IMG/VR virus record: IMGVR_UViG_3300045240_000043
Span: 1 to 54,354 of that record
Direction: 5' to 3' (one strand)
Source of the DNA: a virus
Length of the DNA stretch: 54,354 bases
Made by a program: the position numbers and the translations under genes. Shown here one piece after another: positions 327 to 29,995 of this stretch. Position 1 is the first letter of the stretch. Every line of letters begins with the position of its first letter. The notes below the pieces were generated by a model. It ran no database searches. It saw nothing but the letters and a program-made list of their open reading frames with translations, and was not told the DNA's origin.

Positions 327-632
327 ATGACAGCCACCGCACCGATCGTCAACTCGATCAGCTTCGACCAGGCCGTCTACGCGCCCGGCGCGCTCATCAC
401 CGCGACCGCGAACATCACCCCCGGCGCGCAGACCCCCATCCTCGGCACCCCCCTCACCGTCACCGCCACCGACCCGGTGACCGGCCTCGTGGGGACGCTG
501 ACGGCCATGTTCTCCGTCGCGTCCGGGCCGGCGTCCGACGTGACGGTGCCCGCGGCGAGTGACCCGTCCCCGCGTAAGTGGACGCTGGTGTCGTGGCTGG
601 CGCCGCTCGCCGTGTTCACCGCCACCGCATGA
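327..632 (+). CDS. Ig-like module protein, probable minor structural protein
   Basis: 101 residues, ATG start behind CTGAAAGGA. The protein is one beta-rich, Thr/Val/Ala-rich module: a start resembling actinophage Ig-like domains (SISFDQAVYAPGALITATANI), a central TVTATDPVTGLVGTL stretch and a C-terminal LAVFTATA strand. Its stop overlaps the start of the next gene as ATGA. The central stretch recurs almost unchanged at the start of the next protein, so the pair probably arose by duplication or by splitting of one longer gene. Likely role is surface or tail binding, inferred from module type and linkage. Confidence 0.6.
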   Translation: MTATAPIVNSISFDQAVYAPGALITATANITPGAQTPILGTPLTVTATDPVTGLVGTLTAMFSVASGPASDVTVPAASDPSPRKWTLVSWLAPLAVFTATA

Positions 633-2385: not shown

Positions 2386-2922
2386 TCAAAGTGACCGCCG
2401 ACCTTGGCTAAGGCCAGTCGTCACGCTCCGTGCACGCCGCAGGAGTGACCCTGCGTAGTCAGCGACACGGCGTGACCAGCGCGGCGAGGACGCCAGCGGC
2501 AGCGGCACGTTCCGCAGCTTGTCATCCCACTGCTGCTTCGGCGTCCCCCAGATCAGGTTGCCCTCGCCGCGGTCGCAGGCGTCCTCGCCGCCAGGAGCCC
2601 ACCTGTTGTCGTCGCTGACGTCGTTCCAGTGCCGCACCTGCGTCCCCGGCGGCTGCGCGTTCTCCGGCTCGTACGCGGCCGTCAGCGCGGGCATCATCAG
2701 CCCGTGGACCTCCCTCGTCCGGGGCGTTCCCTCGTCGTCGACGAGGTTCGTCTGCGGATAGCCGCGAGTAGAGAACCGCAGGGCCAGATCCTTCCCCGGC
2801 TGCCGCCGCCCGTTCGCCAGCCTCCGGTCAACCGAGCGCACCCGGCCACGGCTCGACACCTCGTAAGAGCTGAAGCCGGGGATCCTGGCCCATAGCTCCG
2901 TCTGCACGTCACTGTCAGTCAT
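2386..2922 (-). CDS. NUMOD4/HNH-type endonuclease-like protein
   Basis: 178 residues; the start at 2922 was chosen because its ATG overlaps the stop of the translocase gene (ATGA) and follows AAGGTAAAGG. The N-terminal part (ELWARIPGFSSYEVSSRGRVRS) is a NUMOD4 DNA-binding motif. The centre has RHWNDVSDDNR and NLIWGT, matching the H..D..DN...NL.YGT core of NUMOD4-associated HNH nucleases, with about 15 extra residues between the DN and NL parts. The last 45 residues are basic and unassigned. It is a likely homing endonuclease that has become translationally coupled to the translocase. Confidence 0.7.
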   Translation of the reverse strand: MTDSDVQTELWARIPGFSSYEVSSRGRVRSVDRRLANGRRQPGKDLALRFSTRGYPQTNLVDDEGTPRTREVHGLMMPALTAAYEPENAQPPGTQVRHWNDVSDDNRWAPGGEDACDRGEGNLIWGTPKQQWDDKLRNVPLPLASSPRWSRRVADYAGSLLRRARSVTTGLSQGRRSL

Positions 2923-4685
2923 CGCAGTACCTTTACCTTCCCGTCTTGCCATGCCTTCAGCTCCAGCGCGTCGAACAGCCGCGCCGGGCCATCCCATCCG
3001 ACATGCTCAGGGAACCCGGCCCGCTGGCTCGCCTTGTTCGCCGCCGCCTTGCTCAGCCTGATGATGTCCAGCTCCCTGGCCTTGGCCAGCGTGACCGCCG
3101 TGGGCGGCAACTCAGGCGTCCCTGGGACAACCGGCTGCTCAGGGCCACCCTGGCCGATCTGCGGGCGCACCGGGACACCTGGGACAGCGACAGCGCCCGG
3201 CATCCCCGCCGGGCACGCCGTGAACGTGCCGTTCACCGCGAACTCACGCGCCCACGCCGCCGCCACGGCAGCCACGGCCTCGTCCTTGTCGTCCAGGTGC
3301 AGGTACGGCACCTGCGTCTCACGAGTCCCCGACGCCGTCACAACCTGTATGCGCCCAGGGACCGTCGGGACCGGCGGCATCGGCACGGACGTCATCTTGC
3401 TCCACGACGACGGCGTGTACCGGGCCATGCACGAGATCCCGATATTGCCGCGCACTGAGCTGTCGTTCGCGCCCGTCGCCGCCGCCGTGATCATCTGCCC
3501 GATGAAGAAGATATGCATCAGCACCTGCCGGCCAGCGAACGCGACGTCACCGATGGCGTCCAGCGCCGGGGACCGCTTCGGCAGCGTCTTGTCGATGGCC
3601 CGCATGTCCGCCCAGTAGCGTTTCAGCTGCGGGATCACGAAGTTCAGTTCCTCCGCGAACAGGATCATCCGTGGTCCGACGTCAGCGCGGATCGCGCCCG
3701 AGGGCTGCAGCCCGGCGAGCGCCACGCTGTTGCGGCGCTTCAGCTCAGTCCCGAACCACACCAGCAGGTCATGAACCTCCGGGATCATCCCCGCGTACGC
3801 CACGTTCGGCAGGCCCCGCAGGCACGGGTAGGAGATCAGCTTCGCGTCGATGACGCCCACCACGTCGCCACGGTGCAGGAACTGCAGCGCGCAGAACGAG
3901 CCCAGGTTCGTCTTGCCGCCGCCCGAGCCCATGTTGAACGCGACGTGGGGGCTGTCCGCGGCCAGCGATGCCTTCACCGGGACGCGTCCCTTCCCGAGCC
4001 CGAACACGACCTCATCGGGATCGGCATCGTCAACGATCCGGGCGACGTCATCCCAGACGGCGCCGCCAGGCGGCGGCTTGCTCTTCGTGTACGTGACCTG
4101 CGGCTTTGCGCCCTTGTCATGGTCCAGTGACCATTCCGCATCGGGTGCCTCGATCGCCAGCTTCGCCGTGACCGCCTGCGTGACCGACTGCCGGGCGCCC
4201 GGACTGCCGGTGAACTCGACGGGCAGGCCGACGATGACCTTGCTGCGGTCGGGCGCGATCACGAGCCGGGCGGGCGGGATGCCCATCTCGTAGGTGAGCG
4301 CCCGGTGCAGCGGCCGCACCCAGGTGCGGTGGTGCCGCCAGTCCCGGCCGCGGGCAATTGCCGCGGGCACGTGCAGCGCCGCGAACGCGAGCGTCCCGAC
4401 AGCGAGGACCGCGATGGTCTCCGTCCTGGCCACCAGCAGCCCTAGCGCCGTCAGCGCCACGCCGAGCGTGGCAACGGTGCGGAGCGCGGCCAGGTCCCGC
4501 TGCCGCCAGTGATGCCACCACAGCGCATACCCCGTCGGGTGCAGCACCTTCGTGGCCTTCCGGTTCCACGTCGCGTTCGTGCGGTACTTGCCATCAAGCG
4601 GCCGGCCACCGAACCAGCGGCGCAGCCGTGGCTGGCTGGCGATCACCAGCAGCACGGCGGCGGCGAGCAGGAACCGGAAGGTCAT
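2919..4685 (-). CDS. FtsK/TraB-like DNA translocase
   Basis: 588 residues. Residues 3-18 and two segments near 66-110 are hydrophobic and predict a membrane anchor. The soluble part has a Walker A variant GSGGGKTN (253-260) and a Walker B-like strand ILFAEE (about 341-346), where Ala replaces the usual Asp. The C-terminal tail includes a Pro-rich linker and a final small helical domain. Architecture and length match actinomycete FtsK-type transfer proteins (TraB/TraSA), which move double-stranded plasmid or ICE DNA between hyphae as a hexameric pump. Neighbours (DUF2637 protein, zinc ribbon, GntR regulator) are also typical of AICEs. Transfer function here is inference; a role in DNA segregation is possible. 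Confidence 0.78.
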   Translation of the reverse strand: MTFRFLLAAAVLLVIASQPRLRRWFGGRPLDGKYRTNATWNRKATKVLHPTGYALWWHHWRQRDLAALRTVATLGVALTALGLLVARTETIAVLAVGTLAFAALHVPAAIARGRDWRHHRTWVRPLHRALTYEMGIPPARLVIAPDRSKVIVGLPVEFTGSPGARQSVTQAVTAKLAIEAPDAEWSLDHDKGAKPQVTYTKSKPPPGGAVWDDVARIVDDADPDEVVFGLGKGRVPVKASLAADSPHVAFNMGSGGGKTNLGSFCALQFLHRGDVVGVIDAKLISYPCLRGLPNVAYAGMIPEVHDLLVWFGTELKRRNSVALAGLQPSGAIRADVGPRMILFAEELNFVIPQLKRYWADMRAIDKTLPKRSPALDAIGDVAFAGRQVLMHIFFIGQMITAAATGANDSSVRGNIGISCMARYTPSSWSKMTSVPMPPVPTVPGRIQVVTASGTRETQVPYLHLDDKDEAVAAVAAAWAREFAVNGTFTACPAGMPGAVAVPGVPVRPQIGQGGPEQPVVPGTPELPPTAVTLAKARELDIIRLSKAAANKASQRAGFPEHVGWDGPARLFDALELKAWQDGKVKVLR

Positions 4686-4695
4686 CGACGTCCTC

Positions 4696-4788
4696 TCACT
4701 TCTTCTTCCTTGATAGCTGGCAGTTGCTGTTGGTGCAGATGCCGTATCGCACCGCTGAGCCGCAGTGACTGCAAGTGGTTGTCGCCAT
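4696..4788 (-). CDS. Thirty-residue zinc-ribbon peptide
   Basis: 30 residues encoded between the DUF2637 gene and the translocase gene. GGAGGTGACC lies just before the ATG at 4788. The peptide has C-S-H-C near the N-terminus and C-x4-C later, ending in RKKK, so it is a minimal zinc ribbon with a basic tail. Similar tiny Cys proteins occur next to transfer genes in actinomycete mobile elements. It may be an accessory protein of the translocase; no direct evidence. Confidence 0.55.
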   Translation of the reverse strand: MATTTCSHCGSAVRYGICTNSNCQLSRKKK

Positions 4789-4793
4789 GATGG

Positions 4794-5393
4794 TCACCTC
4801 CCTCCGCTTCCGTTGAGACTGGTCACCCTGGCGACCCGCTTGGCCACCGTGGTCTTCGACACGCCGTACACGGCCGCGATCTCACGCTGAGACAGGTGCC
4901 CGGGCACCCGGCCGGCCGCGTCGGTGACCGCCTCGTCCAGGGTGGCCGGGAAGGTGACCGCGCCGCTGTCAGCCGGGGAGGGAAAGCTAGCGGCGCGGTC
5001 ACGTCTCAGGATGCCCATCAGGATCTCCAGGGCAACCCACATGGTCACCGGGGCCAGCGCGTTGACCAGCGCGGACCCCCGGTGGTCAGGCCACCCCGCC
5101 GCGACGTTCATCACCAGCGTGATCAGGCAGCCCAGCATGAGACCAGCCACCGCCCACCGGGGTCGCGGCACCTTCGCGGTAGCCGCTTCATACAGCGCGA
5201 GCGCGGACAGGTAGATGAGGCCGTCGGGCAGCAGCGGGGGCAGGTACGCCCACCCGCCGCCCGTGCCGGACGCGCGGACCACCTGCAGCGCGTGCCGGTA
5301 GGACATGATCGCGGCGGCGATGCCGATGGCGGCGGTGACGGTGACCGCCCTGCGCCGCACCCGGTCACCCCGGTCCCTGCTGGTCCTCTTCAC
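4794..5393 (-). CDS. DUF2637 membrane protein with C-terminal HTH
   Basis: 199 residues from a GTG at 5393. Four hydrophobic helices fill residues 10-130, with the WAYLPPLLPDGLIYLSALALYEA and LVMNVAAGWPD signatures of the DUF2637 family found in actinomycete plasmids and AICEs. The last 50 residues contain a helix-turn-helix (LSQREIAAVYGVSKTTVAKRVARV) that could bind DNA. It heads the leftward operon DUF2637, zinc ribbon, translocase, HNH. It resembles spread (Spd) proteins in position and topology. No Shine-Dalgarno is visible; a -10-like TATTCT lies just upstream, so the mRNA may be leaderless. Confidence 0.7.
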   Translation of the reverse strand: MKRTSRDRGDRVRRRAVTVTAAIGIAAAIMSYRHALQVVRASGTGGGWAYLPPLLPDGLIYLSALALYEAATAKVPRPRWAVAGLMLGCLITLVMNVAAGWPDHRGSALVNALAPVTMWVALEILMGILRRDRAASFPSPADSGAVTFPATLDEAVTDAAGRVPGHLSQREIAAVYGVSKTTVAKRVARVTSLNGSGGR

Positions 5394-5463
5394 GCCAACA
5401 GAATATGTGGCTTGGCGTGGCGTGGCTAGCACTTGACTATGGTGAGTCGTTACGGTAAGCCCC
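5394..5463. promoter_or_regulatory. Divergent promoter region between DUF2637 and GntR genes
   Basis: A 70-base region separates divergent genes that both start with GTG and lack clear ribosome-binding sites. It holds a TTGGCGTGGCGTGGC direct-repeat tract, a leftward -10-like TATTCT and a rightward TTGACT. The GntR-type product probably binds here, as Kor-type regulators do in actinomycete transfer modules. Exact sites are uncertain. Confidence 0.45.
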
Positions 5464-5694
5464 GTGCCCATCGACCCATCCTCGCCCGAGTGGCCGCGCG
5501 TCCAGGTGGCCAACCGGATCCGCCAGCAGATCCAGGCCGGGCAGCTCGGGCCGAAGCTGCCGTCGCACATGGAGCTGGCGCAGCAGATGGGCGTCGCGCC
5601 GATGACGGTCCAGAAGGCGCTGGCGATCCTGCGCGAAGAGGGACTGGTCTACTCGGTGGCGGGTCGCGGGACTTTCGTCACGCCCGCTGGCTAG
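5464..5694 (+). CDS. Short GntR-family winged-helix regulator
   Basis: 76 residues, GTG start. The whole protein is one GntR-type winged helix: VANRIRQQIQAGQLGPKLPSH, the recognition helix region MGVAPMTVQKALAILREEGLV and the wing SVAGRGTFV. It has no C-terminal effector domain, so it is far shorter than standard GntR repressors. It is divergent from the transfer-like operon and is its best candidate repressor, analogous to KorSA-type control. Confidence 0.85.
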   Translation: MPIDPSSPEWPRVQVANRIRQQIQAGQLGPKLPSHMELAQQMGVAPMTVQKALAILREEGLVYSVAGRGTFVTPAG

Positions 5695-5848: not shown

Positions 5849-5974
5849 TCACCACTCGACGTGCCAGTGCCGGAACTTCCCCCGCCGCGTTTTCCAGTAC
5901 CAGCAGAGCTTGTGCTGGTGATACCACCAGGTGCCAGTCGCAGGGTTGCGCCCTTGCAGCCGGATCACTGGCAT
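5849..5974 (-). CDS. 41-residue Trp/His/Arg-rich protein coupled to integrase
   Basis: A short gene whose ATG overlaps the integrase stop (TGATG) and is preceded by GGAGGGG. The product is strongly basic and aromatic (motifs TWWYHQHKLCWYW, RHWHVEW), rich in Trp, His, Lys and Arg. It may be a nucleic-acid-binding or excisionase-like partner of the recombinase; this is a position-based guess. An overlapping longer ORF in another frame has no start signal and was set aside. Confidence 0.5.
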   Translation of the reverse strand: MPVIRLQGRNPATGTWWYHQHKLCWYWKTRRGKFRHWHVEW

Positions 5975-6597
5975 CACAGCCCCTCCGGGTGCTGGTCGCC
6001 GTCGTCGCGTCCCCATTTGCTGGCCAGCATCGCGTCGATCGCCGACCGCGGGTTCAGGTGCTGGATGTAACGGTCGGTCGTTCCCACGTTCGAGTGGCCC
6101 AGGAACACGGAGATCATGTGCGTCGGCACACCCTCGTTCGCCGCCTCGTACGCCCGGCTATGGCGGAGGCCGTGGCAGTGGACGCGTTTCTCCAGCTTCG
6201 CCTTGGCGCCGAGGTCGGTCATCATCCACCGCACGTACCGCGACGACAGCGGGCGCCCGGCGAGGGTGCAGAACAGCGGCGCCGACCGGGGCAGCCCCTT
6301 CGCCTCCCGGGCCGCCAGCCACACCTCCAGCACCGCCCACGCGCGGGGCTCGATCCCGACGGTGCGGGCCTTGCGGCCCTTGCCGAACATGACGCGCACG
6401 GACCCGTCGGCGCGGTCCAGGTCGTGGATCCTGAGGTGGAGGGCTTCCTCGCAGCGCAGCGCCCCGCGCCACAGGACGACGATGAGCGCCCGGTTGCGTT
6501 TCCCGGTGGGGGACGTGGGGGAGCAGGCCGCCATCAGCGCCTCGACCTCGCCGGTGGTGAGCGCCTGCGGGTGGAACTTGAGCCCGGCGTTACTCAC
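5974..6597 (-). CDS. Tyrosine recombinase, catalytic-domain only
   Basis: 207 residues using the GTG at 6597, which overlaps the stop of the upstream gene (GTGA); an ATG at 6693 would add 32 residues inside that gene. Catalytic residues are all visible: R48 (GALRCEEAL), K in GKGRKART, H142-x-x-R145 (HGLRHS), H168 (LGHSNVGTT) and Y177 (DRYIQH). The N-terminal core-binding domain of phage integrases is almost missing, leaving a compact catalytic domain. It may act as an accessory recombinase, resolvase or remnant of the mobile-element module. The genome has a second, full-length integrase at 10483. Confidence 0.85.
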   Translation of the reverse strand: MSNAGLKFHPQALTTGEVEALMAACSPTSPTGKRNRALIVVLWRGALRCEEALHLRIHDLDRADGSVRVMFGKGRKARTVGIEPRAWAVLEVWLAAREAKGLPRSAPLFCTLAGRPLSSRYVRWMMTDLGAKAKLEKRVHCHGLRHSRAYEAANEGVPTHMISVFLGHSNVGTTDRYIQHLNPRSAIDAMLASKWGRDDGDQHPEGL

Positions 6598-6947
6598 AGC
6601 AGCGTTCCCTGCGCGGCGGGAACGCGCGGCCCGCGACGCATACCGGCGTCGCTGCGCTTGGTCCGCGGTTCGTAGGTGAGGCACACTGGCCACGGGTTGC
6701 CGTCGCTGAACTCCTCTGCGCAGTGCGGCGGGTAGGGCGAAGCGTCAGGTGACCATTCGGGCATGTCGGCGTTGTACGGGTCGCAGATGGCGCGGGAGAC
6801 CAGCTCGCAGCCGTACCCGCCGCCGTTGCCCTCGCGGCGCTCGCGGGCGCTCTCGTGCCTGCATCCGGCGCACATGGCGTCCAGCCACTCAGACAGGTGC
6901 ACGCCGCCGTCGCTGTTGCCGCCGAACAGGTCCGTAGCGGTGGCCAT
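6594..6947 (-). CDS. Cys-rich small protein, probable zinc binding
   Basis: 117 residues from the ATG at 6947. It contains C-x2-C-x-H (CAGCRH), further cysteines at CEL and ICDPYNADMPEW, and HCAEEFSDGNPWPVC near the C-terminus, suggesting one or two bound metals. It sits between two other Cys-containing small proteins in the leftward early operon. Function unknown. Confidence 0.6.
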   Translation of the reverse strand: MATATDLFGGNSDGGVHLSEWLDAMCAGCRHESARERREGNGGGYGCELVSRAICDPYNADMPEWSPDASPYPPHCAEEFSDGNPWPVCLTYEPRTKRSDAGMRRGPRVPAAQGTLL

Positions 6948-6950
6948 CAC

Positions 6951-7244
6951 TCAGTCCTGCCGCTTCTCACAGTTAGCGGTACTCATAGCGGAAATCTCCC
7001 GTTCCCAGCGCTCATATTCAGCCGGGATCAGGTACTGGTCGGGCTGGGGCGGCAGGTGACAGCCCTCCCCGTCAAAGCCGTGGCAGCGCCACCAGCCATC
7101 TTTACCCAGGCGCATATCACCGTGCTGGATGCAGCCGGGATGGCAACCATGCCCGATGAGCGGATGCCCGGTGATCCCGCAGGGCGGGGGCGCCCCAGGG
7201 CCGTCCCAGTAGGTGACAGTCACGCGCCCGGTGCCTGACCTCAT
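6951..7244 (-). CDS. Small Cys/His protein ending in the repeat-encoded KRQD tail
   Basis: 97 residues, ATG at 7244. The middle has HGCHPGCIQHGD and WWRCHGFDGEGCH, a Cys/His pattern likely to bind zinc. The last 11 codons (MSTANCEKRQD) are encoded by copy 1 of the dispersed junction repeat. Function unknown; early-operon accessory gene. Confidence 0.6.
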   Translation of the reverse strand: MRSGTGRVTVTYWDGPGAPPPCGITGHPLIGHGCHPGCIQHGDMRLGKDGWWRCHGFDGEGCHLPPQPDQYLIPAEYERWEREISAMSTANCEKRQD

Positions 7245-7278
7245 GGCGTCTCCTGCCGCTTCGCAAGGGTAGCGGTAC

Positions 7279-7590
7279 TCACAGGTCGTACCAGTACTTG
7301 AGGTCTCCCTCGCTGGAAGCGGTCAGGCTGTCATAGTCGCTGCTGTGACATAGCCACTCGCCCGGCTTTACCTGGGTGTACCGGGTGCGCGATGGGTGAT
7401 CGTCAGGAACGTCAGTCCAGGCGGCGACCAGTACGGTGCCGGACGGCAGCGGGCATTCGGCCGCCTCGCCCTGATAAGCCATCCCGGCGACCTTCCGCAC
7501 CTCATCCAGTGATTCACCGTGAAGGTACTGGGCGCCAGTCAGCGTGCTCGTATCCTGCCGGGGCTTAGGCCGGTACTTCCTGATCGTCAC
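7279..7590 (-). CDS. Small early protein of unknown function
   Basis: 103 residues, GTG at 7590 behind GGAGGG supplied by repeat copy 3. Acidic and Tyr-rich towards the C-terminus (YTQVKPGEWLCHSSDYDSL, KYWYDL). No family recognised. Ends just before repeat copy 2, with the stop TGA forming the first bases of the repeat. Confidence 0.6.
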   Translation of the reverse strand: MTIRKYRPKPRQDTSTLTGAQYLHGESLDEVRKVAGMAYQGEAAECPLPSGTVLVAAWTDVPDDHPSRTRYTQVKPGEWLCHSSDYDSLTASSEGDLKYWYDL

Positions 7591-7629
7591 GACTCAGCCC
7601 TCCTCTTTCCGTTTCGGGGGTAGCGGTAC

Positions 7630-8157
7630 TCATACCAGCACCCCTTGCGCTCTCTCACTGCCCATGCTGCTGGTGCCAGGGAACAGGTCCACCATCTCGT
7701 CACCATCCTGGTAGCCAAGCCAGTCGAGCACCGCCCGGCAGACCTTCCCCGGCTTGGCGCCAACGAGGCCCTTGCGGAACGTCACCGGCGCCGACACCCA
7801 ATCCTTCGGGGTGATTCCCTCGCCGCCCTTCTCAGGGACCGGCGGATTGGCGTTCCGGCCACCGCGGTAGATGATCGGCTCCCAGGCGTAGGCCGGGCGC
7901 ACGCCCTTCTTGTAGACGCAGAACGTCTTGACCCACGGGGCGACGCGGGTGTCAGGTGGCGTCATAGGCCAGATGTCACGTAGCGACGGCATGCTCAGCG
8001 ACAGCGCCCACCCATCCGGGTACCGGGCCACGAGATGATCCACCAGCTGGCGGTGGGTGGCAAGGTCGTCCCAGCATCCCCACGGCGCATCATGACGATG
8101 GCCATAGTGCTTCCCGCACATACCGAGGTACGGCGGGTCGGCATAGGCGAAGCGCAC
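7630..8157 (-). CDS. DNA methyltransferase, motif order IV then I
   Basis: 175 residues, starting at the GTG at 8157 behind GGAAGG; the longer upstream frame overlaps the preceding gene. The catalytic motif ADPPYLG is at residues 6-12 and the SAM-binding-type motif VDLFPGTSSMG at about 156-166, the circularly permuted (beta) order of N4-cytosine/N6-adenine DNA methylases. It is short for the family, lacking most of a target recognition domain. It may protect phage DNA from restriction or modify it for regulation. A second, larger DNA methylase is at 19455. Confidence 0.75.
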   Translation of the reverse strand: MRFAYADPPYLGMCGKHYGHRHDAPWGCWDDLATHRQLVDHLVARYPDGWALSLSMPSLRDIWPMTPPDTRVAPWVKTFCVYKKGVRPAYAWEPIIYRGGRNANPPVPEKGGEGITPKDWVSAPVTFRKGLVGAKPGKVCRAVLDWLGYQDGDEMVDLFPGTSSMGSERAQGVLV

Positions 8158-8159
8158 GT

Positions 8160-8507
8160 TCAGTCCTTCCGTCTGCCGCTTCGGCTGGTAGCGGTATCCA
8201 GGTGCATCACATGGACGAGGGCGTAGTGCCCCCGGTAGCCATCCATCGTCCAGAACGACCGGCTGCATTCGCAGCGGTGACGGTGCGGCCACACGAACAA
8301 CGGGAGCGGGATCGATGGCACCCACTGCCCGCGTGAGTTCTGCGTCTGAGCGGCGGTGGCGCCGAGCGCGTCACCGCGAAGCATGGTGACCGTTTGCAGG
8401 TATGCCTCCCGGTAGGAGATGCCCAGCCCCTTCGCCAAGCCGTGGGCGTGACCTTCGCGCCACCCGTCATCCCAGAGCGTGGGTGTTCCGGTCTCGATGT
8501 CAGCCAT
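8160..8507 (-). CDS. Small early protein with repeat-encoded GRRKD tail
   Basis: 115 residues, ATG at 8507. N-terminal half is helical (GWREGHAHGLAKGLGISYREAYLQTVTML); the C-terminal half has CECSRSFWTMDGYRGHYALVH, which resembles a C2H2-like zinc motif. The final residues DTATSRSGRRKD come from repeat copy 4. Function unknown. Confidence 0.6.
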   Translation of the reverse strand: MADIETGTPTLWDDGWREGHAHGLAKGLGISYREAYLQTVTMLRGDALGATAAQTQNSRGQWVPSIPLPLFVWPHRHRCECSRSFWTMDGYRGHYALVHVMHLDTATSRSGRRKD

Positions 8508-8508
8508 C

Positions 8509-8784
8509 TCAGTCCTTCCGCTTCGGCAGGGTAGCGGTATTGCGCAGGCGGTCCAGTGCGGCCTCTATGTCCGGGGGCGACTCGTGATTGTGCGCCGCGT
8601 CCAGGCACCACAGCGGCGGCCCGCCAGCGTCACCTGCCAGACGCTCGGCCAGAAACCTGTCAATCTGCAGGTCGCCCTCATGCGGGCAGCCCGGGTGATG
8701 CAGGTACGGCGCCCGGCCATCGGCGCGGTAGCTGCCGCAGCCGGGGCAGGCGTTCACCCGGTGCGGATTCGGGGACTGTGCCAT
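8509..8784 (-). CDS. Small zinc-ribbon-like early protein
   Basis: 91 residues, ATG at 8784 overlapping the stop of the upstream gene (ATGA). Motifs: ACPGCGSYRADG, HPGCPHEGDLQ and CLDAAHNHE, a probable zinc-ribbon layout. C-terminus NTATLPKRKD is encoded by repeat copy 5. Function unknown. Confidence 0.65.
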   Translation of the reverse strand: MAQSPNPHRVNACPGCGSYRADGRAPYLHHPGCPHEGDLQIDRFLAERLAGDAGGPPLWCLDAAHNHESPPDIEAALDRLRNTATLPKRKD

Positions 8785-8963
8785 CAGTCCTTCCCCTGCC
8801 GCTTAGAAAGCGTAGCGGTACTCTCCAGCGACAGCAGGGCACCTTCTACCGCCTCGTCGGTGATGCCGTCCAGCGCCCGGTAGATGTCCTCTAGCGGGAT
8901 GCCAGATTCCATCGCTGGCCAGTCCCGGCCGGCCACGTAGTAGCCGGTACGCCGATCGGGCAT
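8784..8963 (-). CDS. 59-residue early protein with repeat-encoded tail
   Basis: 59 residues, ATG at 8963. Acidic helical body (IPLEDIYRALDGITDEAVEGALLSLE) followed by STATLSKRQGKD from repeat copy 6. It is tightly packed between genes with an ATGA overlap at its stop, which supports it as real. Function unknown. Confidence 0.6.
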   Translation of the reverse strand: MPDRRTGYYVAGRDWPAMESGIPLEDIYRALDGITDEAVEGALLSLESTATLSKRQGKD

Positions 8964-8966
8964 CGG

Positions 8967-9149
8967 TCAGTCCTTCCGCTTAGTTGCGGTAGCGGTATCG
9001 ATTGGGCGCCGGGCGGCCTCGGTCATCGCCCCGAAGGCGCGCCGGTACTTCTCGGCCCAGGCAGCGAGCGGCTCATTCATGGCCTTCATCGCTTCCGCGA
9101 ACTGCACCACCGCCGACAGCTCCGCCTTGTCACTGATGTTGTCGATCAC
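8967..9149 (-). CDS. 60-residue helical early protein
   Basis: 60 residues from a GTG at 9149 that overlaps the stop of the upstream gene (GTGA). Almost wholly helical (ELSAVVQFAEAMKAMNEPLAAWAEKYRRAFGAM is spread over residues 10-45), with the repeat-encoded tail DTATATKRKD. Function unknown. Confidence 0.6.
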   Translation of the reverse strand: MIDNISDKAELSAVVQFAEAMKAMNEPLAAWAEKYRRAFGAMTEAARRPIDTATATKRKD

Positions 9150-9427
9150 TGCTTATCCATCTCATACAGGTGCCAGACCAGGCCGTCGGGGCTGCGCGGA
9201 CAGGTGCCGACCCAGCGGGCGTCATCGGGGAGCGGCTGGCCGGTGCCGAACACCTGAAATGCGCGTTTGACCTCCGGTGCTCCCTTGGTGCTCTCAGCCC
9301 AGAACTCGACGACATGACCAAGATTGCCGCTGACGGTGGCAACGGCAACCGGGCTGTGCGACAACCCGAACTCGTGCGGCTGGTCATCGAGGGGGACAAC
9401 GTAACGAAACATGCGCCGGTCATCCAT
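9146..9427 (-). CDS. DUF7352-like small protein
   Basis: 93 residues; the ATG at 9427 was chosen because AGAAGGAGGA lies just upstream. The pattern FRYVVPLDDQ, VEFWAES, FQVFGTGQPLPDD and a final VWHLYE matches a small family frequent in phages and actinobacteria (I believe DUF7352), predicted to be an all-beta protein. No known function. It is preceded by repeat copy 8. Confidence 0.65.
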   Translation of the reverse strand: MDDRRMFRYVVPLDDQPHEFGLSHSPVAVATVSGNLGHVVEFWAESTKGAPEVKRAFQVFGTGQPLPDDARWVGTCPRSPDGLVWHLYEMDKQ

Positions 9428-9526
9428 CGTTCCTCCTTCTGCCGCTCTTGAACCTAAGCGGTACATACAGGCCACTCTACAGGGGTTCGGAAGGCGTGTC
9501 ACGCAAGAGCGGTACATACAGCGGCT

Positions 9527-10282: not shown

Positions 10283-10483
10283 TCACCGCCTGCTGAGCGC
10301 TTCGCGCACTGTGGCGTACATCGCCGGGTGCAGGCGCTTGCGCCGGCTGCGGCCTTCCGCCAGCGCCTTGTTCATGTCCCGCACCGACTGAGCGTAACCG
10401 GGGCTGTTGTGGCTGCGGTAGCCGCCGATACCGTGCTTGCGGCTGCTCAGGTTCCCGCGGCCGGACTGGCTGCTCATGAACAT
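10283..10483 (-). CDS. Small basic protein coupled to integrase
   Basis: 66 residues; its ATG overlaps the integrase stop (TGATG). Strongly basic, with a probable helix SVRDMNKALAEGRSRRKRLHPAMYATVREALSRR split over residues 32-66. Position directly after the integrase suggests a recombination directionality factor or DNA-bending partner; this is not supported by a recognised motif. Confidence 0.5.
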   Translation of the reverse strand: MFMSSQSGRGNLSSRKHGIGGYRSHNSPGYAQSVRDMNKALAEGRSRRKRLHPAMYATVREALSRR

Positions 10484-11403
10484 CAGCCTGCCACGATCCG
10501 CAACCGCTCGGGCACCGGCAGCGCGGCCACCGCGGCGTGCGCCGACGGCCGGTCATACGCCGCGTACCCGGCCGTCACCACCGGCGAGGAGTGCCCGAGC
10601 AGATCCTGCGTCAGCCTAAGATCCCTAGTTCCCCGGTAGATTTGCGTGCCATATCTATGACGCAGGGAATGGAGCGTGGCCTGCACTCCGCATTCGTGCA
10701 AGTGGATATTCGCGTAATGGGATATAAGTCCCGGCGTGCACGGCCCAGGCTGGCCGTCCATGCGACGGAACACGTAGCCGCTAGGCGGCAGTCCAGCGCG
10801 TTGGAGTTCCGCGATTACGAATCCGTTAAGCGGCACGGCTCTCTCCCGCGCATGCCCCTTAGTGGCACCGGCGGCGACGATGAGCACCGGCGGGGACGCG
10901 GTTTCGAGTACGGATTCGCGGCGTAGCAGCGCTATCTCCTTGGCGCGCAGCCCGCACCAGGCAGCAAGGATGAGCCAAGGCCGGATACGTGGCGTGGCGA
11001 GCGCGAGCGCTCGCATGAGATCCGGCTCACCGACGGGCCTGGGGAGTCTCCTGGCGGTGCGCGGCACCGGGATGCCTGCGGCCGGGTTAGCGCTGATCAG
11101 GCCGCTGGCCACGCAGGACTCGTAGAACGCGCGGGCGTGGCCGACGTAGTGGACGATCACCTCGTCGCTGACGGTCAGGGAGGCCCGCCACGCGCCCAGC
11201 GTCGCGGCGTCAGCGTCGAGAAGGGGGACGGGGAGAGCGCGGCCGAGCTGCCGCAGGAACGTTAGGCGACCGTAGATGGTCGCGGCCGAATGCCCGAGCA
11301 GGCGCAAATGCTCTAAATGGTCCTCGATCGCTTCCATGAGGATGCCGGATTCTGTGCGTGCTGCGGGGCACAGTGACGGATCGTAACGCAACGGTATTCG
11401 CAT
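10483..11403 (-). CDS. int: Phage integrase, tyrosine recombinase
   Basis: 306 residues from the ATG at 11403; a GTG at 11448 would overlap the upstream repressor gene by 19 bases. Residues about 25-115 form a SAM-like core-binding domain (AATIYGRLTFLRQLGRALP, VIVHYVGHARAFYESCV). The catalytic domain has R153 (WCGLRAKE), K182 (TKGHARER), H245-x-x-R248 (HSLRH), H271 (LLGHSSPV) and Y280 (TAGYAAY). It would recombine attP with a host attB. It is linked to a repressor gene upstream, forming a standard lysogeny module. Confidence 0.92.
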   Translation of the reverse strand: MRIPLRYDPSLCPAARTESGILMEAIEDHLEHLRLLGHSAATIYGRLTFLRQLGRALPVPLLDADAATLGAWRASLTVSDEVIVHYVGHARAFYESCVASGLISANPAAGIPVPRTARRLPRPVGEPDLMRALALATPRIRPWLILAAWCGLRAKEIALLRRESVLETASPPVLIVAAGATKGHARERAVPLNGFVIAELQRAGLPPSGYVFRRMDGQPGPCTPGLISHYANIHLHECGVQATLHSLRHRYGTQIYRGTRDLRLTQDLLGHSSPVVTAGYAAYDRPSAHAAVAALPVPERLRIVAG

Positions 11404-11429
11404 GGCAAGGGCCTTGCATAAACCGCTGG

Positions 11430-11747
11430 TTACGCGGCTAGAATGCACAGCGAACGACGCTGCGGCAGGGTCTGAATAAGCGCGGACCTGGACTTCACAT
11501 CAGGCAGATTCGGCACGAGAACCGGGCCGTCGAAAAAAACAGTGATCGGCACGTCCAGCAACTCGGCTAGCTTCGCCAGGTCGGACACGTCGAACGGGAC
11601 GCCCCCGGTGAGGCGCCGCGACAGGTAGGGCTCGGTCCAGCCGAGTTCGAGGGCTGCGGATCGCCCGGATCTCTGCCGCCGTGCGAGCCAGGCCCTGACT
11701 TCGCCTGCGACAATCCGTTGCATCATCTCCGCGTGCGGGGTATCCAT
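11430..11747 (-). CDS. XRE-type HTH repressor (leftward)
   Basis: 105 residues from the ATG at 11747. The region EVRAWLARRQ...ALELGWTEPYLSRRLTGGVPFDVSDLAKLAELLDVPI is an XRE-type helix-turn-helix. The last 30 residues are a different, possibly oligomerising tail. It closely resembles the divergent protein at 11827, so the two are paralogues. As the gene cotranscribed with integrase, it is the likelier lysogeny repressor. No Shine-Dalgarno is visible. Confidence 0.8.
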   Translation of the reverse strand: MDTPHAEMMQRIVAGEVRAWLARRQRSGRSAALELGWTEPYLSRRLTGGVPFDVSDLAKLAELLDVPITVFFDGPVLVPNLPDVKSRSALIQTLPQRRSLCILAA

Positions 11748-11826
11748 GCGGTCAGCGTAAGGTTCCGATACCGGACATTGCAAGTATGACTTGCGCGAAA
11801 TTTCGCTCAGCGGTAACCTGCCACGC
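11748..11826. promoter_or_regulatory. Genetic-switch region with two adjacent palindromes
   Basis: The 79-base gap between the divergent HTH genes contains GCAAGT-ATG-ACTTGC (11780-11794), a 15-base inverted repeat, directly abutting GCGAAATTTCGC (11795-11806), a perfect 12-base palindrome. Two distinct adjacent operators between two paralogous regulators fit a bistable immunity switch. Which protein binds which site cannot be told from sequence. Confidence 0.65.
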
Positions 11827-12036
11827 ATGGCCAGAGAAACTATCGCAGGCGAGGTCCGGGCAGAGCTCGGTCGCCAGAACCTCTCGCAGACCTACGTATG
11901 CGCCCGGCTGAAATGGACCCAGCCCTACCTGTCCCGGCGCCTCACCGGCCAGGTCGCGTTCTCCACCGATGACCTGGAGAAGATCGCGGAGTTCCTCGAC
12001 GTGCCCGTCATCCGGTTCCTGGAGCCGGCGGCATGA
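11827..12036 (+). CDS. XRE-type HTH regulator (rightward, Cro-like position)
   Basis: 69 residues from the ATG at 11827; a TTG at 11791 would extend it across the palindromes and was rejected. It is almost entirely an XRE-type HTH domain (EVRAELGRQNLSQTYVCARL, WTQPYLSRRLTGQVAFSTDDLEKIAEFLDVPVIRF). It shares the YLSRRLTG core with the divergent repressor. First gene of the rightward early region, so a Cro-like role is likely. Confidence 0.82.
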   Translation: MARETIAGEVRAELGRQNLSQTYVCARLKWTQPYLSRRLTGQVAFSTDDLEKIAEFLDVPVIRFLEPAA

Positions 12037-12476
12037 TGCCGACCCTGCGCGAGCGGCTGCACGCGCGTCTCGCGCCCTGCGCTGATCCCGGCTGTGACTG
12101 CCTGCTATGGGGCGGCCTCCTGAACAACAAGGGCTACGGCCGGATCTACGCTCACGGCCGGGTTCGCGGCGTCCATGAGGTCGCGTGGGAACTGGAGCAT
12201 GACCCGGTCCCCCGCGGCCTTGAGCTAGATCACGTCAAGGCGCGCGGGTGCATGCACGCGAACTGCGCGAACGTCGCGCACCTGGAACCAGTGACGCACC
12301 GGGAGAACCTGCTGCGCGGCGACACGGTCGCTGCCCGGCATGCGGCGACCACCCATTGCCCGGCTGATCACTTGTACGACATGGCGAACACCAGGATCGA
12401 GCGCAGCGGCAAGCGGCACTGCCGGGCATGTGACCGGGACCGTAAGCGCCGGGAGCGCGCCAAAGCCGCGTACTAG
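12033..12476 (+). CDS. HNH endonuclease
   Basis: 147 residues; the ATG at 12033 overlaps the preceding stop. HEVAWELEHDPVPRGLELDHV, GCMHANCANVAHLEPVTHREN and a second Cys cluster HCRACDRDRKRRERA give a typical HNH fold of the actinophage type, with His as general base in LELDHV and Asn in CANVAHLE. The N-terminal Cys pair (CADPGCDCLLW) is usual for this subgroup. Likely a free-standing homing nuclease or an early phage nuclease. Confidence 0.85.
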   Translation: MMPTLRERLHARLAPCADPGCDCLLWGGLLNNKGYGRIYAHGRVRGVHEVAWELEHDPVPRGLELDHVKARGCMHANCANVAHLEPVTHRENLLRGDTVAARHAATTHCPADHLYDMANTRIERSGKRHCRACDRDRKRRERAKAAY

Positions 12477-14680: not shown

Positions 14681-14832
14681 CCTGCGCCCGCTGCGGAGCC
14701 GACTACGACGACGCCGACCAGGACGTGACCTGGAGCCACACCTACAACGAATGGACCTGCACATACGTCACCGACTGCGACGATCGCCTGTTCGAGCAGC
14801 GCCAGGGAGAAGGACACCCTGATGGGTTCTGA
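14674..14832 (+). CDS. 52-residue zinc-ribbon-like protein
   Basis: The ATG at 14674 overlaps the preceding gene, and the stop overlaps the start of the ERF gene. The product opens with VTCARCGADYDDADQD and has WTCTYVTDCDDR, giving two Cys pairs typical of a small zinc ribbon. Function unknown. Confidence 0.5.
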   Translation: MVTCARCGADYDDADQDVTWSHTYNEWTCTYVTDCDDRLFEQRQGEGHPDGF

Positions 14833-15730
14833 GTCGCTCGCCACCGCGCTCGCCGCGTTCCAGGCCGACCTGCCAACCGTGGAAAAGAACCGCACAGGCG
14901 AGGTCAGCGGCACCAGCAAGCAAGGCAAGCCGTACAGCTACACGTACAAGTACGCCGACCTAGCCGACGTGAGCAGCGTCGTTCTCAAGGCCATAGGCAA
15001 GCACGGACTCTCGTTCACGTCCAGGCCGACGACGGTCGACGGGAAGTTCGGGCTGGCGTACTCGCTGCTGCACGTCTCCGGGGACCGCGAGGACGGGTTC
15101 TTCGAACTGCGCGACGACCCTGATATTCAGCGGGTGGGTGGCCGTATCACCTACGCGCGCCGCTACTGCCTGTGCGCCGTGACCGGCGTGGCAGCCGAAG
15201 AGGACACAGACGCGCGGCACGACGCGCAGCAGGCCCCCAAGCCGCGCGCTAGCCGCCGCAAGCCCGAGATGCCTGAGGTGGACAAGCATGGTGCAGCCAC
15301 GCTGGCTGAGCAGACGCGCATGGTGCACGGCGCCGTAGACGGCGTGGAACGGCTCGCCACGACGCCACCAGACGACCCATGGCTGTCCGTGGACGAGAAC
15401 GGCGAACGTCGGGCCGCCGGCCAGTTGCCGCGTCCCATCGGTGACCAGCCACCCAAGCCCGGCCACATGCAGGAACGGCTGCCGCACCTGAACGCCATCT
15501 TCGGTCACTTCAACCGGCTCGGCGTTCAGGACAAGGCATACCGGCTATTCGTCACCGCGCTCCTGGCCGGCCTTGAACCGGGCGGCCTCAAGACCAGTAC
15601 TGATCTCACCGAGGAGCAGGCCAAACGGGTGCTTGAGGAGCTATCGCACCTGAAGGACGGCCCGGCGCTGGCCGCGCGCAAGAAGGCCATCGAGGCCGAG
15701 CTGGAATTGGCGGCAGCCGATGCCGTATGA
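14822..15730 (+). CDS. erf: ERF-family single-strand annealing protein
   Basis: 302 residues. Residues 1-130 match the ERF superfamily: SLATALAAFQADLPTVEKN, YKYADLADVSSVVLKAIGKHGLSF, and the IQRVGGRITYARRYCLCAVTGVAAEEDTD core ending. The linker (about 135-215) is charged and the C-terminal 80 residues form a helical domain. ERF proteins anneal homologous single strands in phage recombination and replication restart. Its neighbour at 15849 is a CoiA-like nuclease-fold protein that could supply processing. Confidence 0.9.
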   Translation: MGSESLATALAAFQADLPTVEKNRTGEVSGTSKQGKPYSYTYKYADLADVSSVVLKAIGKHGLSFTSRPTTVDGKFGLAYSLLHVSGDREDGFFELRDDPDIQRVGGRITYARRYCLCAVTGVAAEEDTDARHDAQQAPKPRASRRKPEMPEVDKHGAATLAEQTRMVHGAVDGVERLATTPPDDPWLSVDENGERRAAGQLPRPIGDQPPKPGHMQERLPHLNAIFGHFNRLGVQDKAYRLFVTALLAGLEPGGLKTSTDLTEEQAKRVLEELSHLKDGPALAARKKAIEAELELAAADAV

Positions 15731-17754: not shown

Positions 17755-18014
17755 GCGGCACCTTCGGCACCGACCGGCTGGCCGCGGGCATCGACTCCCT
17801 CGGCGCCCTCCCGCCCCGCAAACCACCACCCGACCCCGGCGACGTCACCACCCGCAAGGAACTCGCCGACGCCATCGGGCACATCATGCGCGGCATGTCG
17901 TCGCCGATCGGCGGCCCGTCACGCAAGGACCGCATCGGCCAGATCCTGGCCGCCTGCGACGCGTACGCCGCCGTGCAGATCGCGGCAGCCATCACCCCGA
18001 GCAAGCGGATGTGA
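17751..18014 (+). CDS. Unknown small early protein
   Basis: 87 residues, ATG at 17751 in an ATGA overlap. A Pro-rich N-terminal third and a helical C-terminal part (TTRKELADAIGHIMRG, IGQILAACDAYAAVQIAAAITP). No family recognised. Confidence 0.55.
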   Translation: MSGTFGTDRLAAGIDSLGALPPRKPPPDPGDVTTRKELADAIGHIMRGMSSPIGGPSRKDRIGQILAACDAYAAVQIAAAITPSKRM

Positions 18015-18029
18015 CCGGCCAAATGACGG

Positions 18030-18103
18030 TAGAATGTTCGAATAGGCCCCGGCGACCAGTTGCATGGCCCCGGGGCGTGGCCACACCTGTTGCGAGGTGC
18101 GAC
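18030..18103 (+). promoter_or_regulatory. Structured leader of NUMOD4-HNH gene (copy A)
   Basis: A TAGAAT -10-like box lies at 18030-18035. Then comes hairpin 1, GCCCCGG (18046-18052) with CCGGGGC (18070-18076), and hairpin 2, CACCT (18084-18088) with AGGTG (18095-18099), which contains the ribosome-binding site just before the ATG at 18104. The same order is found before the HNH genes at 44896 and 50848, with different paired sequences. Confidence 0.6.
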
Positions 18104-18583
18104 ATGCCTGATGCTACCCATGAGACCTGGAAGCCAGTCGTCGGCTACGAGGGCCTCTATGAAGTCAGCGACCGTGGACGGGTCCGCACCGTGCCGCGCA
18201 TACTCAAGCCCGGCACCCTCAACCATGGCCATCTGCACGTAAACCTGTGGATCAACCGCAAGGGAAAAACGCGAACCGTCCACCGCCTTGTCGCCGCCGC
18301 GTTCATTGGCCCTTGCCCTGACGGGCAAGAGGTACGGCACCTGGACGGCAATCCCACAAACAACGCCGTCGAGAACCTGAAGTACGGCACGCGCAGCGAG
18401 AATCTGCTTGATCGAGTCCGGCATGGCACCCACAACAACGCCAGCAAGACGCACTGCAAGAACGGTCACGAGTTCACGCCTGAGAACACCATCGACAACC
18501 ACGGCAACCGTGGCTGCCGGGAATGCCACCGTGTCGCTTCCCTGGCCTGGTGGGACCGCCAAAGGAGCAAGGAGATCAAATGA
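18104..18583 (+). CDS. NUMOD4-HNH homing endonuclease
   Basis: 159 residues; the ATG at 18104 follows GAGGTG, and the longer upstream frame is the leader. WKPVVGYEGLYEVSDRGRVRTV is NUMOD4. The HNH core reads RTVHRLVAAAFIGPCPDGQEVRHLDGNPTNNAVENLKYGTRSENLLDRVRHGT over residues 65-110, with the H-x-D...NN...NL pattern. A C-terminal zinc-like motif follows (HCKNGHEFTPENT, CRECHR). It sits just upstream of the endolysin gene, its stop overlapping that gene's start (ATGA). A mobile intergenic insertion. Confidence 0.9.
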   Translation: MPDATHETWKPVVGYEGLYEVSDRGRVRTVPRILKPGTLNHGHLHVNLWINRKGKTRTVHRLVAAAFIGPCPDGQEVRHLDGNPTNNAVENLKYGTRSENLLDRVRHGTHNNASKTHCKNGHEFTPENTIDNHGNRGCRECHRVASLAWWDRQRSKEIK

Positions 18584-21958: not shown

Positions 21959-22084
21959 ATGGCACGCTGGCAGGCGTCATACGACGCCCTCAGCCAGCCA
22001 TGCGGATGCGCGTCATGGTGGCAGTGGGCCAGCGGCGAGCGCATCTGGGTGCGCAAGCACTGGACCTGCACACGGCACGCCTGA
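21959..22084 (+). CDS. 41-residue Trp/Cys-rich peptide
   Basis: ATG at 21959, seven bases after the preceding stop. Sequence has PCGCASWWQWASGERIWVRKHW and ends TCTRHA: Cys/His/Trp-rich, similar in style to the 41-residue protein at 5849 but not clearly homologous. Possibly zinc binding. Confidence 0.45.
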   Translation: MARWQASYDALSQPCGCASWWQWASGERIWVRKHWTCTRHA

Positions 22085-22101
22085 CCTGGCATACTGGCAG
22101 C

Positions 22102-22908
22102 ATGGCCAGGACGCGCGGCACGACCAAGCAGCGCGGACTCAGCGGCCCGCATCAGTCCGACAAGAAGCGGCTAAAAGCCGCGCTCCGTCCAGGCGACACC
22201 TGCTGGCGCTGCGGCAAGCCCATGACGCCGGACCAGGAACTCGACCGCGACCACATCGTTGACCGCGCACTCGGCGGCACCAACGGCCCCGCAGTCCTGG
22301 CACACGCACATTGCAACCGCTCGGCAGGCGCAACGCTCGGCAACCAGATGCGCGGTCAGCGGCGGCGCATCGTCAAGGCAGCCACCTCATCACAGCAGCC
22401 GTTCCGTACGTCGCGGCAGTGGTTAGCGTCGACCTGCCGGACCTGTGGCAAGCCAGCCGACGGCCGCGCTGCACGTAACTGCGAGATATGCGGCGCGCAC
22501 TACCATCCCAACAGCGCTGAGCAGCGCACCTGCGGACGTGCATGCGGCGTGACTCTCAGACGCACGGTCACCCTGACGCTGGTGAAGTGCGAGCGCTGGC
22601 CATCCAGCAAGATCTACATCCGGCCATGCGAACACTGCGGAACGCTGTTCACTGGCCGCACGAATGCCCGTCGCTATTGCTCGCTGCGATGCGGGCAGAC
22701 TGCGTATAACCGCAGCCGCGGCAAGCACGAGGAACGTCATTGCGCATGCGGCACGCCGTTGCAGGCAGCACGCAGGAAGTGCGACGCATGCGTGCGCGAG
22801 ACTAAGCGCGAGCACAAGCGCAGGCAAAGACGACAGCCAGCAGCACGGGCAAGCGAGGCAAGACGCAGACGCGCGCAACTAGATGCAAGACGTGCCAGCA
22901 TCGCCTGA
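22102..22908 (+). CDS. HNH endonuclease with zinc fingers, next to terminase
   Basis: 268 residues; ATG at 22102 with a CATACT -10-like box six bases before, suggesting a leaderless mRNA. The HNH core CWRCGKPMTPDQELDRDHIVDRALGGTNGPAVLAHAHCNRSAG lies at about 32-75. Four further Cys-pair modules follow (CRTCGKPA, CEICGAHYHP, CEHCGTLFTG, CACGTPLQAARRKCDAC) and an Arg-rich end. HNH proteins beside terminase genes often help packaging, but the multi-finger layout resembles the free-standing nuclease at 29210. Confidence 0.82.
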   Translation: MARTRGTTKQRGLSGPHQSDKKRLKAALRPGDTCWRCGKPMTPDQELDRDHIVDRALGGTNGPAVLAHAHCNRSAGATLGNQMRGQRRRIVKAATSSQQPFRTSRQWLASTCRTCGKPADGRAARNCEICGAHYHPNSAEQRTCGRACGVTLRRTVTLTLVKCERWPSSKIYIRPCEHCGTLFTGRTNARRYCSLRCGQTAYNRSRGKHEERHCACGTPLQAARRKCDACVRETKREHKRRQRRQPAARASEARRRRAQLDARRASIA

Positions 22909-24726: not shown

Positions 24727-24972
24727 ATGGCGGTGACCCTCCCGGGCCGGGTCCCGGTTGACGAGATCACGGCCCGCGCCCGCCAGGCACGCCCCGGCCG
24801 CGCCATCCTGACCGCCATCGCCGCGATCCTGTTCGCGCTCGGCTGGCTGGCCGCGAGGACGCTGACGGGCCTGTGGCTGGCGCTGGCGTGGTCCGGTACC
24901 GCGGTGAAGGTCGGATGGCAGGCCGGGCGCCCTCCCCGCGGAGGGGGCGCGGTGAGCCGTGGGGCTGCTTGA
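24727..24972 (+). CDS. Small membrane protein between terminase and portal
   Basis: 81 residues behind GGAGC. Two hydrophobic helices (about 27-46 and 49-63) within a basic protein. Small membrane proteins at this position occur in several actinophages; role unknown. Overlaps the portal gene by 14 bases. Confidence 0.6.
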   Translation: MAVTLPGRVPVDEITARARQARPGRAILTAIAAILFALGWLAARTLTGLWLALAWSGTAVKVGWQAGRPPRGGGAVSRGAA

Positions 24973-29209: not shown

Positions 29210-29995
29210 ATGGTCAAGCAGATCTGCCTGACGTGCGGGGTACTCTTCACGCCCCGCACGTCAGGCGGGAAACCCCAGGTCAGATGTTCGGAGAAGTGCC
29301 GCCGCAAGGTGGCCAACGCGAACTTCATCAAGAAGAACGCCCCGGCCAGGGTCACGGAATGCGCGGAATGCGGCGGCCCGGTCGTCCAGGCTGAGCTGGG
29401 GCGCCCGCGCCGGTTCTGCTCGGATAAGTGCAAGGCAAGGACTACGAACCGGGCACAGAACCGCACCACTCTGCCCGCGCCGAAAGCGGCAGCCCGCGCC
29501 TGTGAATATTGCGGGCAGATGTTCCTGCCCAGTCGCCGGGACGTCCGTTATTGCCCTGGTTCCTGGTGTGGCCAGAAGGCGTATAAGGAACGTAAGCGCG
29601 CGGGTGCCCCGGTGCTCATAGGGGAACGCGCCGTCCGCTGCGATGAGTGCGGCAGCGAGTTCACGGCTAAGCACCCAAACGCTCGCTGGTGCTCTCCCCG
29701 GTGCCAGGTGCGGCACAGGAGCCGGGAGTCAAGCAGGCGCCGTGGCAGCGCGGACGGCGCGGTGGCGTATACCGACCGGGAGATTTTCGAGCGCGACGGC
29801 TGGCGCTGCTACCTGTGCGGAAAGCCAGTGGACCGCACGGTTCCCCGCACCGACCCGCTCGGCGCGACCATCGATCACATCGTGCCGCGTTCGCGTGGTG
29901 GCCCCGATGCGCCTGACAACGTGGCGACGGCGCACTGGCGGTGCAACCGCCAGAAACGGGATCGGCCCGCCGATTACCAGCTACGGCTAGGCTAG
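29210..29995 (+). CDS. HNH endonuclease with tandem zinc fingers
   Basis: 261 residues. A TAGACT box lies seven bases before the ATG, implying its own leaderless transcript. Four or five Cys-pair fingers (CLTCGVLFTPR, CAECGGPVV, CEYCGQMFLPSRRDVRYC, CDECGSEFTA) precede the HNH core RCYLCGKPVDRTVPRTDPLGATIDHIVPRSRGG...NVATAHWRCNRQK. Inserted after the capsid gene. Architecture resembles the 22102 nuclease with finger and HNH order reversed. Confidence 0.88.
   Translation: MVKQICLTCGVLFTPRTSGGKPQVRCSEKCRRKVANANFIKKNAPARVTECAECGGPVVQAELGRPRRFCSDKCKARTTNRAQNRTTLPAPKAAARACEYCGQMFLPSRRDVRYCPGSWCGQKAYKERKRAGAPVLIGERAVRCDECGSEFTAKHPNARWCSPRCQVRHRSRESSRRRGSADGAVAYTDREIFERDGWRCYLCGKPVDRTVPRTDPLGATIDHIVPRSRGGPDAPDNVATAHWRCNRQKRDRPADYQLRLG

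Follow-up and report, generated by a model that had tools for sequence, protein, structure and literature searches.

Position-specific junction repeats in a phage early operon are shared, in order, with a second phage whose intervening genes differ

The 54,354-base IMG/VR virus record IMGVR_UViG_3300045240_000043, referred to here in its entirety as the window, contains a leftward early operon of small genes (minus strand, 9520 down to 6957) with a short repeated element at its gene junctions. The element is approximately 32 bp long and is made up of TACCGCT, a spacer of 8–10 nt, AGCGG (AACGG once in the window) and a Shine-Dalgarno sequence, and is followed by a start codon. Each copy has its own spacer. 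Five of the copies have counterparts in the same order in a second phage, IMGVR_UViG_3300037117_000082 (G001; 115,040 bases, 68–69% G+C), which was found by a pattern scan of IMG/VR. Every gene between the shared junctions differs, and the comparison shows that an ordered set of distinct junction sequences with position-specific spacers has apparently persisted in the two phages through complete replacement of the genes.

There are eight full copies and one half copy of the element, all on the minus strand, with one per gene junction of this single operon. Seven are exact matches to TACCGCT-N9/10-AGCGGMAG, the reversed pattern used as a control having no matches, and the eighth full copy (7605–7628) is diverged, with AAACGG and a shorter spacer. 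The repeat described as nine-copy in the first-pass annotation is real, although it consists of these eight full copies, seven strict and one diverged, and a half copy; its placement in the leftward early operon was correctly recognized, with one copy at each of eight junctions. The inverted arms are 7 bp long, nearly palindromic, nearly constant in their spacing, and present in a single orientation. When up to 3 mismatches were allowed, 14 matches were found in the window against 3.2 expected, and none of 100 shuffled sequences gave at least 14. Six of these loose matches are the copies themselves and six are the same copies on the other strand. The pattern was found nowhere else in the window genome, the sites being confined to 6957–9520. 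Apart from G001, searches for further carriers in IMG/VR, INPHARED (50,697 phage records) and PLSDB (72,556 plasmid records), though not in metagenome contigs or actinobacterial prophages, revealed nothing comparable. The features of the array are as follows, in the direction of transcription.

9508–9520, minus strand: half copy TGTATGTACCGCT, repeating 13 bases at 9457–9469 (before and into copy 1), 51 bp upstream of copy 1
9474–9502, minus strand: candidate sigma-70-like promoter GTGACA-17-TAGAGT between the half copy and copy 1, a consensus match only (9/12)
9439–9463, minus strand: copy 1, non-coding, spacer TAGGTTCAAG; 21/21-base core in common with G001 copy 1
9146–9427, minus strand: DUF7352 protein gene, 93 amino acids (aa), the first gene after copy 1 (PF24043, E 5e-19)
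8967–9149, minus strand: open reading frame (ORF) of 60 aa, tail TATATKRKD, without Pfam or PHROG family
8973–8997, minus strand: copy 2, spacer ACCGCAACTA; 22/22 bases in common with G001 copy 2
8784–8963, minus strand: ORF of 59 aa, tail STATLSKRQGKD
8796–8820, minus strand: copy 3, spacer ACGCTTTCTA; the G001 copy 3 spacer is TTGCTTTCTA
8509–8784, minus strand: ORF of 91 aa, tail NTATLPKRKD, without relative in INPHARED
8515–8539, minus strand: copy 4, spacer ACCCTGCCGA; 31/32 bases in common with G001 copy 4
8160–8507, minus strand: ORF of 115 aa, frame-shifted tail TATSRSGRRKD, without relative in INPHARED
8173–8196, minus strand: copy 5, spacer one base shorter (ACCAGCCGA); not in G001
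7630–8157, minus strand: ORF of 175 aa, DPPY-containing and methyltransferase-like, stopping immediately before copy 6
7605–7628, minus strand: copy 6, diverged (AAACGG, shorter spacer), non-coding; not in G001
7279–7590, minus strand: ORF of 103 aa, stopping immediately before copy 7
7253–7277, minus strand: copy 7, non-coding, spacer ACCCTTGCGA; not in G001
6951–7244, minus strand: ORF of 97 aa, tail STANCEKRQD, without relative in INPHARED
6957–6981, minus strand: copy 8, spacer AACTGTGAGA; partner of the last G001 copy, TCCTGTGAAG-AACGG
6594–6950, minus strand: ORF of 118 aa starting after copy 8, weak match to phrog_6074

The five G001 copies lie at gene junctions on one strand between 47664 and 49491, and no others were found in that genome. 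Their spacers match, in order, those of window copies 1, 2, 3, 4 and 8, copies 5, 6 and 7 having no counterpart. The spacers differ between the phages at 2 positions at copy 3 and at about 4 at copy 8. None of the other assignments among the 6,720 possible scores as high as this collinear pairing, which has a score of 43 against a mean of 20. Over the five pairs, mean identity is 27–29% in the left flank, 97% in the left arm, 86% in the spacer and 96% in the right arm, then 60% in the 7 nt that follow MAG (the Shine-Dalgarno sequence) and 23–24% beyond. For comparison, random 20-mers are 28% identical and non-partner spacers 32%. Similarity at each junction is an island of about 32 bp, and is random beyond the module edges. 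In a blastn comparison of the whole window with a 15-kb stretch of G001, the seven best matches were all copies of the element. The half copy is also present in G001, as GAGTACCGCTC, 50 bp upstream of its copy 1. Between the two phages, the 65 nt that precede copy 1 align with a score of 43, against 24 +/- 6.7, and 1 in 1000 random pairs scored as high. The suggestion in the first-pass annotation that the repeat may be a mobile mini-element is unlikely to be right, as the copies are not scattered and keep their order and individual spacers between the two phages.

A 22/22-nt match between the genomes is also found outside the array (window 381–402), in apparently unrelated coding sequence, and looks like chance. 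Single matches of 22 nt are therefore of little weight, and the case rests on the five collinear pairs. Window copy 7 and G001 copy 3 (L017 6053–6089) have the same right flank (AAGCGGCAGGAGACGCCATGA) and different spacers; this may be left over from an exchange inside the right arm, or it may be chance. Spacers were also considered as guides to other sites, and this was rejected: their 9-mers occur elsewhere in either genome only as scattered, chance-like matches.

The genes between the copies lack convincing relatives in the 15-kb stretch of the other phage, the best tblastn match (E 0.003) being to an unrelated place. Those of the window encode the DUF7352 protein, the methyltransferase-like protein and ORFans, and those of G001 a MazG-like protein and ORFans. 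INPHARED contains no relative of the G001 MazG-like protein or of three of the tailed window proteins. The 175-aa methyltransferase-like ORF has distant relatives (29–37% identity) in Arthrobacter, Microbacterium and Curtobacterium phages, one of which is annotated as a DNA methyltransferase. Genome-wide, the two phages have in common only moderately similar genes, such as those for ERF and an HNH endonuclease. The ERF protein is encoded within about 10 kb of the array in both.

The reading preferred here, with a probability of roughly 0.45, is that the junction modules supply ribosome-binding sites, have outlasted the replacement of the genes between them, and are where genes are exchanged between phages. 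Each module of about 32 bp comprises inverted 7-bp arms enclosing a spacer specific to that junction, followed by a Shine-Dalgarno sequence and often a stop codon. Short-homology recombination between phages with the same module set, perhaps through the ERF-type annealing protein of both, would replace whatever genes lie between two modules and leave the modules in place, so that a small early operon is shuffled in register. Recombination at the modules is suggested by two observations: in each of the five pairs similarity stops at the edge of the module on either side, a pattern that breakpoints placed at random would not give, and both phages encode an ERF annealing protein. The spacers of window copies 5 to 7 resemble that of copy 4 (copy 5 with a score of 7, copy 7 at 8/10 positions). 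This suggests that the window array grew by copying of a junction with each added gene, as would be expected if genes are gained together with a copied junction. The more specific idea that the copies are addressed exchange sockets, permitting in-register swaps of single early genes between co-infecting phages with operon order, ribosome-binding sites and coupling undisturbed, is rather unlikely.

Several points weigh against exchange at the modules. The comparison is of two metagenomic genomes only, with one operon each. Neither a recombination event nor a third phage with a swap at one junction and its neighbours kept has been seen. Unselected spacers need only be recent, and their 86% identity may reflect a short divergence time; if they are selected, a regulatory role would explain them without exchange. 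Lastly, 22–32 bp is short for homologous recombination, although repeats of 29–50 bp at gene ends have been published as boundary sequences, one of them giving two genes a common C-terminus (PMC3029335).

Boundary sequences, which have been proposed for phage mosaicism on the basis of cases such as Island3 gene 67/68 and the 29-bp repeat of LRRHood (PMC3029335), are the nearest known system in logic. As there, short repeats are located at gene ends, some of them give unrelated or adjacent proteins a common C-terminus, and genes differ between phages. Sequence conserved at the junctions and non-homologous on both sides is found here in five islands, with flanks at random identity. The boundary cases are single or paired junctions, whereas here a single operon has eight addressed junctions, five of which are in the same order in a phage without common genes between them.

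Eight copies are translated as the ends of upstream ORFs, five in the window and three in G001, and all use the frame ACC-GCT. The first-pass annotation had described the same tail in one frame in five proteins. The common entry frame stands, yet only four window ORFs end in TA..KR tails (TATATKRKD, STATLSKRQGKD, NTATLPKRKD and STANCEKRQD). The fifth (8160–8507) has the same beginning and then a frame shift to TATSRSGRRKD, because the copy 5 spacer is one base shorter. Such tails could be a peptide tag or degron on early proteins, as had also been proposed, and the single frame in 8/8 translated copies is in keeping with this, as is the similarity of the copy 8 tails in the two phages (STANCEKRQD in the window, STASCEERKDCP in G001). 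This was rejected and is scarcely credible, since the same DNA is non-coding at window copies 1, 6 and 7 and at G001 copy 4, copy 5 is frame-shifted, and the tail ends vary (KRKD, KRPTEEL, KRQETP). Copy 4 is particularly informative, being translated in the window but not in G001 although 31/32 bases are identical, so that selection or inheritance acts on nucleotides and not on the peptide. Homologues of the tailed proteins that might mark a natural C-terminus were not found. The shared tail is mostly a by-product of how the junctions are built, as the same DNA is non-coding at other copies.

At translated copies the stop codon is close to or overlaps the next start codon in all but the last G001 copy, in the layouts TGAccgATG, TGATG, TGAgATG, TGAacGTG, TGAgtgATG, ATGA and ATGA, as expected for putative translational coupling. 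At three other copies the upstream gene does not reach the element, ending directly ahead of it at window copies 6 and 7 and about 11 nt short of it at copy 4 of G001. The last G of AGCGG is 10–18 nt from the next start codon in 12/13 copies of the two phages, with a purine-rich Shine-Dalgarno sequence between. Judged by this position, the element is shown to supply the predicted ribosome-binding site of the next gene, as the first-pass annotation had it.

It could be that this is the whole of its function, a strong Shine-Dalgarno sequence with stop/start coupling, in which the arms form a short mRNA hairpin that opens the start region and the spacers are inherited leftovers. The distance to the start codon and the placing of a stop near the next start by the coding copies would suit such a purely translational module. 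It is nevertheless quite unlikely. Fewer than half of the 13 copies have arm pairing as their predicted minimum-energy fold, shuffled sequences fold nearly as well, and the folding z-scores range from +0.6 to -1.9. In two copies (window copy 6 and G001 copy 8) the right arm reads AACGG against a constant left arm, so that a pair is lost, and neither loss is compensated. The conserved unpaired A and the identity of the spacers would also be unexplained. The first-pass annotation had suggested looking for copies in other phages and for conserved pairing: five copies were found in G001, whereas the 11 alignable copies contain no compensatory change. No Rfam family matches the element. The hairpin pointed out in the first-pass annotation was rejected as the selected unit on account of weak folding and the lack of covariation.

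A regulatory array is a serious possibility, though the odds are against it. The inverted repeat at each gene start would be bound by a protein of phage or host origin, or by an RNA, to control early expression, and purifying selection would keep the sites as the genes change. The near-palindromic 7-bp arms, their nearly constant spacing, the single orientation and the fixed place before the Shine-Dalgarno sequence and start codon are all consistent with such sites, and in the window a promoter-like sequence is found between the half copy and copy 1. No promoter-like match was found at the corresponding place by G001 copy 1, however, and the sites are nowhere else in either genome. A repressor common to both phages was not found, the HTH_3 candidate of the window (11430–11828) having no detectable homologue in G001. 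Binding sites would also leave unexplained the spacers, which are copy-specific yet conserved by position.

The regulatory systems that such an array would resemble are the start-associated sequences (SAS) and extended start-associated sequences (ESAS) of cluster K mycobacteriophages and the stoperators of cluster A. SAS/ESAS, the nearest in placement, are multi-copy, in one orientation, at early-gene starts, include the Shine-Dalgarno sequence, and accompany different genes in different phages (Pope et al. 2011, PMC3203893). The SAS is a 13-bp sequence, GGGATAGGAGCCC, located 3–8 bp before start codons (PMC3203893). ESAS are 17-bp imperfect inverted repeats tied to SAS, with a spacer usually of 4–13 bp and promoter-like hexamers (PMC3203893, PMC11373665); the spacer they flank is variable, and changes in them do not support RNA pairing (PMC3203893). 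The element likewise is multi-copy, in one orientation, at early-gene starts, includes the Shine-Dalgarno sequence, has inverted repeats around a variable spacer with changes that give no support to RNA pairing, and accompanies different genes in different phages. The likeness in placement and not in sequence noted in the first-pass annotation is confirmed: no match to GGGATAGGAGCCC with up to 2 mismatches is present in the window, while the same script found 18 sites in Pixie, 16 in Anaya and 10 in TM4. ESAS have 17-bp arms and promoter hexamers and are located in wide gaps, whereas the element has 7-bp arms, no SAS and position-specific spacers, and usually overlaps the 3' end of the upstream gene. 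Promoter-like matches near the array are found only upstream of copy 1 and inside the gene at 7630–8157. Cluster A stoperators (L5, Bxb1) are 13-bp asymmetric sites across the genome, bound by the immunity repressor (PMC3029335). Like them, the element occurs as numerous short sites close to gene junctions and in the direction of transcription; unlike them, it is confined to one operon and is a dyad with a spacer. Position-specific spacers conserved in order are apparently not reported for SAS/ESAS, stoperators or boundary sequences (PMC3203893, PMC11373665, PMC3029335).

The window has a G+C content of 68.8% and is apparently from a temperate phage. The record names no host; G+C content and nearest relatives suggest a probable actinobacterial one. 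The principal features outside the array are as follows.

5974–6603, minus strand: second tyrosine recombinase, 209 aa, catalytic domain only (PF00589, 118 bits), ending the operon just downstream of the array
10483–11448: integrase
11430–11828: HTH_3 repressor candidate
14822–15730: ERF protein
At 23284: TerL
At 24959: portal

The recombinase at 5974–6603 apparently lacks the usual N-terminal DNA-binding domain. Its position at the end of the operon, and the geometry of arms and a central spacer, bring to mind sites for a tyrosine recombinase, with an overlap of 8–10 bp that must match and one address per junction, as in an orthogonal lox-type set. Such a system would need position-specific spacers. 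It is, even so, highly unlikely. The arms are short, and the spacers, at 8–10 bp, vary in length by up to 2 nt where a fixed overlap of 6–8 bp is expected. The two phages do not have orthologous recombinases, the best pair being 29% identical (E 1e-4), and the nearest one in G001 is 14 kb from its array.

Pattern and leader scans of IMG/VR found only G001 and chance matches, and searches of INPHARED and PLSDB with the eight copies gave chance matches only. There is no array at the loci of DUF7352 relatives (L020–L026), nor at 80 ERF loci with the exception of G001's own. Scans of IMG/VR and genomes with the FtsK-like and methyltransferase-like proteins gave no useful relatives.

It has long been asked whether short boundary sequences guide the mosaicism of phage genes, or whether it arises by illegitimate recombination at random, with selection acting afterwards. 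The persistence of ordered junctions, if borne out by further genomes, would be an unusually clean case. If the sites are regulatory, they would represent a new start-associated element outside cluster K; if addressed exchange is true, phages would have a modular scheme, naturally evolved, for assembling their early operons.

The phage at locus L020, which has a DUF7352 relative and does not have the element, carries a different repeat of 30 bases (9254–9283 and 9321–9350), its two copies 67 bp apart, 93% identical and containing a GGGAC...GTCCC inverted repeat. In the window, ARAGORN identifies a tRNA-Cys (gca) at 1774–1874 on the minus strand that is unusually long at 101 nt, possibly through an intron or a false call. 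Five genes of the HNH or NUMOD4 endonuclease type are present (2386–2997, 12033–12476, 18011–18583, 22000–22908 and 29210–29995). At 2919–5570 on the minus strand, an ORF that is FtsK-like by inspection and without a Pfam match adjoins a DUF2637 protein gene, an arrangement that is seen in actinobacterial conjugative elements.

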